Part shown: positions 19,623 through 22,486 of the stretch, one piece after another
How positions within the stretch are numbered: position 1 is the stretch's first letter
Layout of the letters: each line of letters begins with the position of its first letter
Source: a virus
Length of the DNA stretch: 39,521 nt
Virus record (IMG/VR): IMGVR_UViG_3300048592_001380
Span: 1 to 39,521 of that record
Strand: one strand, 5' to 3'
The notes under the pieces: generated by a model
Databases searched by the model: none
What the model saw: the letters and a program-made list of their open reading frames with translations, nothing else
What the model was told of the DNA's origin: nothing
Made by a program: the position numbers and the translations under genes

Positions 19623-19919
19623 CTACTCGGCGACCTCGATGCCTTGGCGCTTCGCGACTTTCACGAGCAGGCGGAAGGTGCGGTCCTGGCTCTCCGAGAG
19701 GCGCTCCAGCTTGGCCCGCAGCTCGGTCTCAGCGACCACTCGGGCCTGGATCAGTTGCTGCTGTTCCTCGAGGCGGATTGCCTGACGGAGGGCGCGGGCC
19801 TCGACGCTGGTCGCCCAGGCGCCGATTCCGGCCATCACCACGGTGAGCAGCACGCCGGCCAGCCAGGCCCAGGTGGGCACGGTCGCGGGCGACAGGCGGT
19901 GGGCGCCTGACGACGACAC
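19623..19919 (-). CDS. membrane-anchored coiled-coil protein of the lysis cassette
   Basis: A 98-residue protein with one N-terminal transmembrane segment (TWAWLAGVLLTVVMAGIGAW, residues 16-35), followed by a long charged coiled coil (ARALRQAIRLEEQQQLIQAR, VAETELRAKLERLSESQDR). This layout is that of an inner-membrane spanin or an XhlA-type lysis protein. GTGGAGG stands five bases before the GTG start. Two lipoproteins in the same cassette could be the outer-membrane partner. It lies between the barrel protein and the HNH gene. The role is inferred from topology and position. Confidence 0.75.
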   Translation of the reverse strand: MSSSGAHRLSPATVPTWAWLAGVLLTVVMAGIGAWATSVEARALRQAIRLEEQQQLIQARVVAETELRAKLERLSESQDRTFRLLVKVAKRQGIEVAE

Positions 19920-19933
19920 GCTAGCCTCCACGG

Positions 19934-20863
19934 CTACCGGATCACCCAGCGGCGGATCGGGATCGCGACGCCGGTCTTGAGCACGCCGGGCCTGGGCAAA
20001 CCGTCCAACGTGGTCAGGGGCAGGTCGTAGTCGACGATCAGCCGCGTGGGGCCGGCCGGGTAGGTGATGGACGCGACGAGGGCGGCTCCGCCCACGGGCC
20101 CGCGGTGGCCGCCTCCCACGTAGGCGTGGCCTCCGCCCGGCAGCGGCACCCGCACGAGCAGCAGTGCGGTCGCCATTCGCGGGTCGAGCGGCCCGTCCTG
20201 CCCTTCGATCGACCAGCTCGTCCCGCCCACGGCCGCCACGGCGACTCCTGCCGCGTGGTAGCGGAGGCCGCCGAAGGTCTCGACGGCCCGGAAGCTCTGG
20301 TACTGGCCGAAGGCCTCGATCGTGCCGAAGTCCTGGGCGCCGGTGATGTCGATTCGCGAGAACACCCGCAGCTTCTCGGAGAGCGCGTAGTCGACCACAA
20401 CGCGGCCGCCGGCGATCTCGCGTTTCTCGCCGCGCGTCACGATCGCCTGAGTCCACCCGGCCAGGTCCACCTCGAGCGCGCCGGCCGACAGGGTGGGGCT
20501 TGCCACGGGCTCGGGGGCCGGAGCCTGGGCCGACACGGAGCCCGGGAGCAGAAGGGCGACGATGACGAGCGGTGCGATCGGCTTGTGCTTCGCCGCGTTG
20601 CCCAGGTAGCGCACCAGGGCCATGACCAGCGGCACGAGCACGAGGGCGACCTGGGGCGGGAAGGCGTCCCCGATGATGGCGGAGATGCGCGCCTCGTCCA
20701 GGGACAGCAGGAGTGCTGCGGCGCAGACGCTGAAGGCGTGCGCACCGAAGGCCTTCAGCGCCTTCATGATCGCGATTCGAGGATCCCAGCCCATCTTGAC
20801 CTCCCGTTCGACCGCCTTCTGGAGGCGGCGGGCCTGCCACAGCAGGCGCAGTTCCTTCAGCAC
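19934..20863 (-). CDS. holin-like N-terminus fused to signal peptide and beta-barrel-like domain
   Basis: A 309-residue protein in two unlike parts. Residues 1-~90 have an amphipathic start (LKELRLLWQARRLQKAVERE) and two hydrophobic segments (AHAFSVCAAALLLSLDEA and VALVLVPLVMALVRYLG), like a holin. Residues ~92-115 (KHKPIAPLVIVALLLPGSVS, then AQAP) look like a cleavable signal peptide. The remaining ~190 residues are alternating aromatic/hydrophobic beta strands typical of an outer-membrane barrel, ending in Trp-Val-Ile-Arg. The GTG start is just beyond the upstream stop. It may be one protein, or two in-frame genes with an internal start; no clear second ribosome site is seen. Confidence 0.65.
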   Translation of the reverse strand: MLKELRLLWQARRLQKAVEREVKMGWDPRIAIMKALKAFGAHAFSVCAAALLLSLDEARISAIIGDAFPPQVALVLVPLVMALVRYLGNAAKHKPIAPLVIVALLLPGSVSAQAPAPEPVASPTLSAGALEVDLAGWTQAIVTRGEKREIAGGRVVVDYALSEKLRVFSRIDITGAQDFGTIEAFGQYQSFRAVETFGGLRYHAAGVAVAAVGGTSWSIEGQDGPLDPRMATALLLVRVPLPGGGHAYVGGGHRGPVGGAALVASITYPAGPTRLIVDYDLPLTTLDGLPRPGVLKTGVAIPIRRWVIR

Positions 20864-20864
20864 G

Positions 20865-21377
20865 TCAGGGGATGACCGTGAGCGTCACGGAGCCGGGCTG
20901 CATCCCCGGGACTGCGGCGCTGATCCCGGCGGCGCCCGCAGACAGCGCCCGGCACGAGACATTGAACGGCTCACCCGCCCACTGCGCGCAGCTCACCAGC
21001 GAGCCCTGACCGACGAACGACCAGGTGACGTTGGGGCCGTGCACGGACGCGGGCAGGTCGCTGCCGTCCGGCGCCTTCGGGGTCGCGGTCAGCTCGGCCG
21101 TGCAGCCCACCTGGAGCGTCGCGGCGCCGTTGTTCGAGCACGCACCTGAGCCGGGGCATGAGCACGAGAACATCCCGACGCGGACATAGCTCCCCGCCGG
21201 GATGGCGCTCGCCGCGGGCGACGGGCTAGCGGTCGGCAGCGGGGTCGGGCTCGGGGTCGGCTGGGAGATCGTCACGACCTGAGTCGGGCCGACCTGGTCA
21301 CCGATGGTGCACCCGGCGACGGCCCCGGCGAGCGCCAGAATGGCCGCCAGGGCGGCGAACGTCGAGCGATGCGTCAC
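20865..21377 (-). CDS. lipoprotein with Ig-like (Big2-type) domain
   Basis: A 170-residue lipoprotein. The signal peptide THRSTFAALAAILALAGAVAG ends in a lipobox Val-Ala-Gly-Cys (Cys23), then a Pro/Ser/Thr linker (PTPSPTPLPTASPSP). The C-terminal ~110 residues form an Ig-like module: LQVGCTAELTATPKAPDG, NVTWSFVGQGSLVSC, AAGISAAVPGMQPGSVTLTV. Extra cysteines (SCSCPGSGAC) suggest disulphides in the periplasm or outside. Ig-like modules on phage proteins usually bind carbohydrate. GTG start in a GTGA overlap with the gene upstream. Superinfection exclusion or cell-surface change are possible roles besides lysis. Confidence 0.8.
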   Translation of the reverse strand: MTHRSTFAALAAILALAGAVAGCTIGDQVGPTQVVTISQPTPSPTPLPTASPSPAASAIPAGSYVRVGMFSCSCPGSGACSNNGAATLQVGCTAELTATPKAPDGSDLPASVHGPNVTWSFVGQGSLVSCAQWAGEPFNVSCRALSAGAAGISAAVPGMQPGSVTLTVIP

Positions 21378-21667
21378 TTGCCCTCCTCCCGGGGCGTCCG
21401 CCCCGCCTGCGCCGCCTGGAGCGCGGCCAGCACCCGCCGGCCTGCCTCTCGCGGCTCCACGCCCAGCGCCACCAGCGCAGCCTCGGCGCGCGCCGTGTCG
21501 CCACCCATCACCTCGAGCAGCCGCTGGTCGAGCGCGAGCTGCGCCGCCTCGTCGCCCGCGGCCTTCTCCGGCGCCTGGAGCAGCCGGCCCGACAGGGTCA
21601 CGCTGGCCGAGCAGCCCAGCGACAACGCCGCGGCCACCAGCAGCGCGAACGGCCTCACCTTGCGCAT
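21374..21667 (-). CDS. small lipoprotein of the lysis cassette (spanin-like candidate)
   Basis: A 97-residue lipoprotein. The signal RKVRPFALLVAAALSLGCSA has a lipobox Leu-Ser-Leu-Gly-Cys near residue 19. The mature part is a short helix-rich domain (AALDQRL-type heptads: AQLALDQRLLEVMGGDTARA) with a basic C-terminus. The ATG forms a TGATG overlap with the membrane-protein gene. Its size, lipidation and place next to an endolysin and a coiled-coil inner-membrane protein fit an outer-membrane spanin subunit, but spanin genes are usually nested or adjacent, so this is inference. Confidence 0.75.
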   Translation of the reverse strand: MRKVRPFALLVAAALSLGCSASVTLSGRLLQAPEKAAGDEAAQLALDQRLLEVMGGDTARAEAALVALGVEPREAGRRVLAALQAAQAGRTPREEGK

Positions 21668-21891
21668 CAGATATCCCTCCGCACCGTCAGCGCCATAAAC
21701 AGCAGCAGGAGCGCGACCAGCGCCCACCGGATGCCCTCGGTCGCATCCGCTACCGACACGGCCTGGAAGCCGCTCGTGATGGCCGCGAGGTGAACCAGCG
21801 ATGACGCCGCCTTGCGGCCCAAGCCGGCGAGCCTGCGGCGCCTTTCCACACGAACGAACTCCTCGGCTTGCTCGCGGTGGGCCTGCTTCAC
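21667..21891 (-). CDS. small membrane protein, possible holin
   Basis: A 74-residue protein with a charged N-terminus (KQAHREQAEEFVRVERRRR), a moderately hydrophobic middle and one clear transmembrane segment near the C-terminus (IRWALVALLLLFMALTV, residues ~53-69) ending RRDI. The GTG start has GGAGGAGGGG upstream, the strongest site of this block. Position directly after endolysin and before two lipoproteins makes a holin, or an antiholin-like anchor, the likely reading. A second weak hydrophobic stretch (LVHLAAITSGFQAVSV) might give two spans. Confidence 0.7.
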   Translation of the reverse strand: MKQAHREQAEEFVRVERRRRLAGLGRKAASSLVHLAAITSGFQAVSVADATEGIRWALVALLLLFMALTVRRDI

Positions 21892-21919: not shown

Positions 21920-22486
21920 TCATCGGTCCACCCTCCCCGCCGCGGCGACGCGCCGGGCGTTCTGCACGCGCGCCGCGTGGCGCGCCACCAGCTCGACGTA
22001 CTCGGCCCGGCGCATCCGGCCGGCGGCGTCGAGGCGATCGCCGGTCGGGCCCCCGTTGAAGCGCGCGAGGGCCCGCGCGACGTCGTTGTCCGTCGCTCGC
22101 AGCTCCTGGTAGAGCACCCGAAGCCCGAGGGAGAGGTTCGCGAGGGGCAGGAGCGCGAAGCTGAACTGCATCGGCGTCCCGGGCGGCACGCCGCAGAGGC
22201 GGCGGATGTTCGAGCCCAGGACCTGCATCAGCCCGTAGGAGCGGTCGTCCTCGAGCAGGCCGTCGTCCCGGCCGGGCTGGTCGCCGTCGCTCTCGCGCGC
22301 GGCGCGCTCCGGAGTGTCGTGGTGCGGCTCGTACCGCATCGCGTCCGGGTTGCCGCCGGACTCCGTGAGGATCTGCCCCTCGAGCCACTCGCCCGGGGTG
22401 AAGGTCTGACCCCGGTACGTCCAGGGCGGGAGACCGATCTGGTTGGCGACCGCGTCGATCAGTGCTCGATAGCGCTCCGTCTTCAT
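21920..22486 (-). CDS. endolysin, SLT lytic transglycosylase domain
   Basis: A 188-residue enzyme of the soluble-lytic-transglycosylase type. The signature is ILTESGGNPDAMRYEP with catalytic Glu42, then DDRSYGLMQVLGSNIRRLCG (residues 80-99), and ALARFNGGPTGDR. It cleaves peptidoglycan glycan strands. There is no signal peptide, so export would depend on a holin. It is the first clear gene of the late operon as transcribed. GGGGGGTG lies before the ATG. A small upstream frame may overlap it by four bases. An insertion between the Glu motif and the SYGLMQ motif (residues ~55-80) is acidic and probably a loop. Confidence 0.93.
   Translation of the reverse strand: MKTERYRALIDAVANQIGLPPWTYRGQTFTPGEWLEGQILTESGGNPDAMRYEPHHDTPERAARESDGDQPGRDDGLLEDDRSYGLMQVLGSNIRRLCGVPPGTPMQFSFALLPLANLSLGLRVLYQELRATDNDVARALARFNGGPTGDRLDAAGRMRRAEYVELVARHAARVQNARRVAAAGRVDR

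Follow-up and report, generated by a model that had tools for sequence, protein, structure and literature searches.

The minus strand of an IMG/VR virus record, whose whole 39,521 bases make up the window analyzed here, carries a single 309-codon frame in which a holin-like membrane region, an internal signal-peptide-like segment and an apparently beta-rich region follow one another. This raises the question of what such a frame produces: one protein, a precursor that is cut, two separate products, or nothing beyond a chance open frame. The frame starts one base past the stop of the preceding gene and contains three hydrophobic segments by hydropathy (residues 39 to 55, 72 to 88, and 96 to 112), a plan found in all three members described below. 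It sits in the lysis and packaging region, where the minus-strand gene order is an endolysin candidate, a 74-amino-acid protein, lipoproteins of 97 and 170 amino acids, the fused frame, a 102-amino-acid protein, an HNH gene, and the small and large terminase subunits. The features of the frame are as follows.

19934 to 20863, minus strand: fused frame, 309 amino acids, from a GTG start at 20863 to a stop at 19934 to 19936.
20750 to 20863, minus strand: basic N-terminal helix region, predicted to be cytoplasmic, residues 1 to 38 (K+R 10, D+E 4).
20792 to 20794, minus strand: second possible start, ATG24, with a Shine-Dalgarno-like GGGAGGT at 20799 to 20805.
20699 to 20749, minus strand: hydrophobic segment TM1, residues 39 to 55, from hydropathy.
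20600 to 20650, minus strand: hydrophobic segment TM2, residues 72 to 88, from hydropathy, preceded by an acidic loop at residues 56 to 71 (K+R 1, D+E 3).
20528 to 20578, minus strand: internal signal-peptide-like segment, residues 96 to 112, preceded by KHK and ending in SVSA, with the predicted cut at 20528/20527.
19937 to 20527, minus strand: Pro/Ala-rich linker and predicted beta-rich exported domain, residues 113 to 309, from composition, alternation, and conservation.

High-GC DNA is rich in long open frames (the window holds 170 of at least 100 amino acids), and two unrelated frames might have been joined by chance or during assembly. A scan of an 84,980-species genome collection with the fused protein returned two relatives, L002 (Vicinamibacteria MAG ACD1) and L003 (Acidobacteria MAG ACD2), with 68 to 69% identity over residues 2 to 309. 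Each is one uninterrupted frame in the same cassette as in the window, so the fusion is not an assembly artifact. With the fused frame on three separate contigs and a dN/dS of about 0.1 in the C-terminal half, joining by chance or assembly was rejected as having next to no probability, and the conserved fusion and the selection on the C-terminal half indicate that the 309-amino-acid frame is a real protein rather than a chance frame. Because L002 and L003 are close relatives, they amount to scarcely more than a single independent comparison, and the family consists of three members only.

For the sequence-only reading, two halves that always occur fused as a known family would have been a refutation. 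The fusion was indeed present in all three members found, but the known family was not: no Pfam or PHROG holin, spanin, or outer-membrane protein (OMP) family matched the fused protein, none of the three members had a PHROG match, and the sole Pfam row (DUF3117, one member, E value of 0.15) was at chance level. Viral contigs yielded no further members with the whole protein, the whole alignment, the N-terminal half, the C-terminal half, the C-terminal 112 residues, or the N-terminal half of L003 as the query, and tblastn found no member among phages. Profile searches of 396 Acidobacteriota genomes (profiles A3 and A2) returned only G001 as a real member, and profile A1, run against the G001 class (193 genomes), returned only G001 and G002 as such. 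Weak A3 rows from five genomes (E values of 0.001 to 0.01) were not counted as members. Two other weak rows were rejected, G504 (A1) as a secretin-like protein by eye and G375 (A2) as an RND-TolC fusion that matched through its signal peptide.

The two halves differ strongly in how far they have diverged. Identity between the window and the two relatives was 37 to 39% in the N-terminal half and 87 to 88% in the C-terminal half, and DNA similarity to the relatives resumes at window position 20485, approximately residue 126, which is the domain boundary. In a codon comparison, the C-terminal domain had a dN of 0.065 with a dS of 0.697 (L002) or 0.650 (L003), values that place this predicted exported half under strong purifying selection. 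The N-terminal half had a dN of about 0.84 and a dS of 0.73 to 0.82, close to the limit of alignment. It has diverged nearly past alignment, with its plan, charges, helices, and Ala/Gln (A/Q) site nonetheless kept at matching positions. Thus, the N-terminal half drifts fast and the C-terminal half is almost fixed, which suggests that the tight requirement sits in the exported part.

The topology of the N-terminal half was assigned by the positive-inside rule. In the three members, the region before TM1 is basic (K+R 10 to 11 versus D+E 3 to 4), the TM1-TM2 loop is acidic (K+R 1 versus D+E 2 to 3), and the stretch from TM2 to the third segment is again basic (K+R 2 to 3 versus D+E 0 to 1). Together with the rule, these flanks predict a hairpin with both ends in the cytoplasm, followed by a third segment that runs from inside to outside. 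Two transmembrane helices with N-in and C-in ends, the arrangement of class II holins, were thus predicted from hydropathy and loop charges in all three members, and the N-terminal half reads as a class II-like holin. The description of a holin-like part followed in one frame by a second signal and an exported beta-rich part was borne out; the three hydrophobic segments, their positive-inside flanks, and the A/Q site recur in every member.

The start region also has features of interest. The first GTG has no Shine-Dalgarno-like site, and its translation would depend on coupling to the preceding gene. ATG24 of the window has six matched Shine-Dalgarno bases, and the corresponding ATG18 of L002 and ATG17 of L003 have five each, after GGGGAGG; at least five matched bases were found for 11.1% of the 252 ATGs in the coding strand of the window. 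All three members, two of which are closely related, have a ribosome site ahead of their second ATG, which is a notable hint but not a decisive one. Variation between L002 and L003 in the first 24 codons is mostly silent (pS of 0.316, pN of 0.089), so translation of these codons is probable. A pair of products that differ by 16 to 23 mostly basic residues would resemble the dual start of class II holins, and the second ribosome site hints at such a pair; a dual-start motif in class II holin genes appears in a reference title in PMC9636201.

The third hydrophobic segment has the properties of a Sec signal peptide. In the window it reads KHK, PIAPLVIVALLLPG, and SVSA/Q, continuing as SVSA/QAPAP, and in L002 and L003 it reads RNWLKHR, FGIALALLVALLMPSP, and AWA/Q, continuing as AWA/QTPPP. 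The A/Q cleavage site, with Pro or Gly before it, is kept in all three members within a surrounding segment that is only 45% identical. A basic n-region, a hydrophobic h-region, and small residues at −3 and −1 were found, as in Sec signals cut by signal peptidase I, the cleavage site being called from hydropathy, charge, and the −3/−1 rule for signal peptidase. Export of the final ~197 residues is predicted whether or not cleavage occurs.

An exported product might instead arise from an internal start, with the holin made from the first start and a second product that would resemble a normal secreted protein. The window has an ATG upstream of the signal segment (ATG81), but it lacks a ribosome site and is not conserved. 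In L002 and L003, only GTG codons with 0 to 4 matched Shine-Dalgarno bases lie upstream, and the sole nearby ATG is inside the signal peptide. No start with a ribosome site upstream of the signal peptide was conserved across the three members; the two products from an internal start that the sequence-only reading had proposed did not hold up and are very unlikely.

We favor, with a probability of roughly 0.45, a single precursor that is cut by signal peptidase I, which is also the more economical reading, because the second half has no conserved start of its own and because the A/Q motif and the segment plan have been kept despite the low identity of the N-terminal half. Residues 1 to about 95 would form the two-helix, N-in/C-in, class II-like holin, and helix 96 to 112, entering from the cytoplasm, would act as an internal Sec signal peptide. 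The last ~197 residues would then reach the periplasm, with signal peptidase I cutting after Ala112. One translation event would in this way give an inner-membrane holin-like piece and an equal amount of a released, exported beta-rich protein, which may sit in or at the outer membrane and assist lysis at a late step in the envelope. The conserved single frame, the segment plan, the kept cleavage motif, the selection on the C-terminal half, and the place in the lysis cassette were observed; that the protein acts as a holin, is cleaved, reaches the outer membrane, and takes part in lysis is what we infer from them. Against the precursor stand the fact that no holin, spanin, or OMP family was matched, the weak barrel call, the separate 74-amino-acid holin candidate, and the family size of three.

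The nature of the exported half was examined by composition, strand-type alternation, and structure prediction. It contains 14 to 15% Gly and no Cys, and none of the three members has a hydrophobic helix beyond residue 112. Alternation relative to 400 shuffles gave z values of 1.83, 2.37, and 2.33 for the three members. The range was 1.18 to 3.63 for eight Escherichia coli OMPs, and it was −1.82 to 2.74 for 16 non-OMP proteins or domains of E. coli. Fifteen of these 16 fell below 1.83, and YajI (2.74) was above the query. A KTGVAIPI/KTGVAVPV motif lies 13 residues from the C-terminal end and resembles the consensus BAM beta-signal; a motif of this type occurred in the last 20 residues of 9.6% of shuffles. 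Aromatic residues make up 7 to 8% of the half versus 13.5 to 20.5% in the OMP controls, and the last residue is Arg, with no C-terminal Phe or other aromatic residue as expected of an OMP. The mean AlphaFold pLDDT was 37 for the whole protein and 31 for the C-terminal half. With this half as the query, hhalign gave probabilities below 1% against all eight OMPs and 16 controls, and a PDB sequence search returned nothing below an E value of 0.08. For the barrel character that had been ascribed to the last ~190 residues, the alternation lies in the OMP range but is equaled by one of the 16 controls, the aromatic content and the terminal Arg speak against it, and with the low model confidence the barrel call is weak. 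Overall, these data are suggestive only of an exported beta-rich domain, perhaps an outer-membrane barrel.

The main alternative to the precursor with an outer-membrane product follows from the same data. The N-terminal half could be holin-like or a mere anchor, and the C-terminal half, cleaved or not, could be a soluble periplasmic beta domain serving as an antiholin-like regulator or in exclusion or immunity. The few aromatics, the C-terminal Arg, the lack of OMP similarity by hhalign, and the equally high alternation of the non-OMP YajI agree with this, and a cleavable signal peptide is reported, in PMC9636201, for the T4 antiholin RI, a periplasmic lysis regulator. However, the alternation, the Gly content, and the KTGVAxPx motif, with the shuffle frequency given above, fit an outer-membrane barrel, and we consider a soluble domain doubtful.

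The neighboring genes bear on how the protein might function, and those of the cassette are as follows.

21920 to 22486, minus strand: endolysin candidate with an SLT domain (Pfam SLT, E value of 4.6e-06), 91% identical in DNA to L002 and L003.
21667 to 21891, minus strand: 74-amino-acid protein containing two hydrophobic segments, a rival candidate for the holin.
21374 to 21667, minus strand: short lipoprotein of 97 amino acids, a candidate by its o-spanin-like position.
20865 to 21377, minus strand: lipoprotein of 170 amino acids with a Pro-rich linker, upstream of the fused frame, with relatives on Vicinamibacteria-class chromosomes.
19623 to 19931, minus strand: 102-amino-acid protein with one N-terminal transmembrane segment and a long, charged, helical-looking tail, an i-spanin-like candidate.

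The endolysin and both lipoproteins are also found upstream of the fused frame in L002 and L003. The 74-amino-acid protein, which could be a second holin or an antiholin, was not seen at the matching place in either relative, and between endolysin and HNH the fused frame was the only one seen there with at least two hydrophobic helices. The 102-amino-acid protein matched phrog_5151 (Rz-like spanin) with an E value of only 0.051. At its position in the cassette, L002 (5866 to 6159) and L003 (5944 to 6156) carry a C-terminally anchored, coiled-coil-like protein of phrog_1103 (function not known), the membrane anchoring of which is opposite to that of the N-terminally anchored, helical-looking protein in the window. 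The L002 and L003 lysis cassettes are 96.6% identical over 2.95 kb (L002, 3271 to 6218; L003, 3274 to 6218), and the flanks, including terminase, differ. By this comparison, the whole lysis cassette is exchanged as a unit, here shared by two different phage regions associated with Acidobacteria. A more distant cassette relative, L014, has a 49% identical endolysin; the fused protein was unmatched in its 41-kb record, an empty result that shows little and is not evidence for separate genes.

The arrangement of the cassette also bears on a reading in which the signal is not cleaved and becomes a third membrane helix, so that one chain would bridge both membranes as a holin with a spanin-like bridge in an orientation reversed from that of unimolecular spanins. 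The predicted topology (N-in, C-terminal domain outside) and the Pro-rich linker after the signal would suit such a bridge, as would a C-terminal half that is beta-rich by alternation and Cys-free, like the unimolecular spanin periplasmic domains described in PMC6139136. The A/Q motif, however, is conserved within a poorly conserved segment, the linker of only ~15 residues is short for crossing the periplasm, and the two nearby lipoproteins and the transmembrane protein with the long charged tail are ordinary spanin candidates. We regard the bridge, a link between both membranes of the kind that the sequence-only reading had also considered, as improbable. The corresponding claim, that the protein physically joins an inner-membrane holin to an outer-membrane beta domain and so couples hole formation to outer-membrane disruption in production and perhaps also in triggering, is to our minds a long shot. 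If cleaved, the chain would amount to a lysis polyprotein of the phage that is processed by the signal peptidase of the host; otherwise, it would be a direct two-membrane lysis protein.

The lipoprotein immediately upstream (20865 to 21377) gives an indication of the host. Among 192 genomes of the G001 class, nine carry relatives, G001 and G002 included, and the six loci inspected (L042 to L047) are surrounded by ordinary housekeeping genes rather than phage genes. An alignment of the lipoprotein, used as a scan query, brought up no relative in viruses. Judging from these Vicinamibacteria-class chromosomal relatives, the lysis cassette of the phage has probably acquired an envelope gene from its host, which probably belongs to the diderm class of G001 (Vicinamibacteria/Acidobacteria-like).

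To our knowledge, holins and outer-membrane lysis proteins are encoded by separate genes. We also know of no characterized lysis system for a phage of Acidobacteriota, and none appeared in the titles and abstract openings among the literature matches listed. The matches listed for holin fusions or polyproteins, internal signals, and the outer membrane likewise contained no such protein in titles and abstract openings. With class II holins of the phage 21 S type, the fused protein shares two hydrophobic helices in an N-in/C-in arrangement, basic ends, a short acidic loop, a strong ribosome site ahead of the second of two candidate starts, and an endolysin in the cassette. However, class II holins are small stand-alone proteins, whereas in all three members the frame continues into an internal signal and an exported domain of ~190 residues and lacks sequence similarity to any holin family in Pfam or PHROG. 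With unimolecular spanins of the T1 gp11 type, the shared features are a single chain, a segment in the inner membrane, and an envelope domain that is beta-rich and lacks Cys. Those proteins have an N-terminal lipid anchor and a C-terminal transmembrane helix, as outlined in PMC6139136. In contrast, the fused protein has no lipobox (no Cys at the cleavage site or in the C-terminal half) and no C-terminal membrane helix, its order is reversed, and it is probably cleaved.

Two further comparisons concern the exported part and the processing. Lambda Lom and Ail-type proteins are small, exported, beta-rich outer-membrane proteins borne by phages; the fused protein is likewise phage carried and predicted to be exported and beta-rich, but it matches no Pfam or PHROG family, and its signal is internal, behind a holin-like domain. 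The Bradyrhizobium fbcH cytochrome b-c1 precursor joins polytopic membrane and exported parts in one chain, which signal peptidase separates at an internal signal, but it is a bacterial respiratory enzyme and not a phage lysis protein. A parallel in layout is L013 (positions 1 to 2466) in the Acidobacteriota genome G375, in which an RND pump (ACR_tran, residues 1 to 558), an internal signal (GAASA/QT), and a TolC-type protein (OEP, residues 593 to 778) follow one another in one frame. When its junction was used as the query, some part matched in 67 of 396 genomes, but among the matches shown both sides lay in one long frame only in G375 (the source), G387, and G087; most of the others covered just the pump side or had its partner in a different frame. 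L013 differs from the fused protein as a large bacterial-genome efflux protein, unrelated in sequence except in the signal segment, but it shares an inner-membrane protein, an internal signal peptide, and an outer-membrane protein in one frame. Thus, fusions of this kind do occur in the presumed host phylum.
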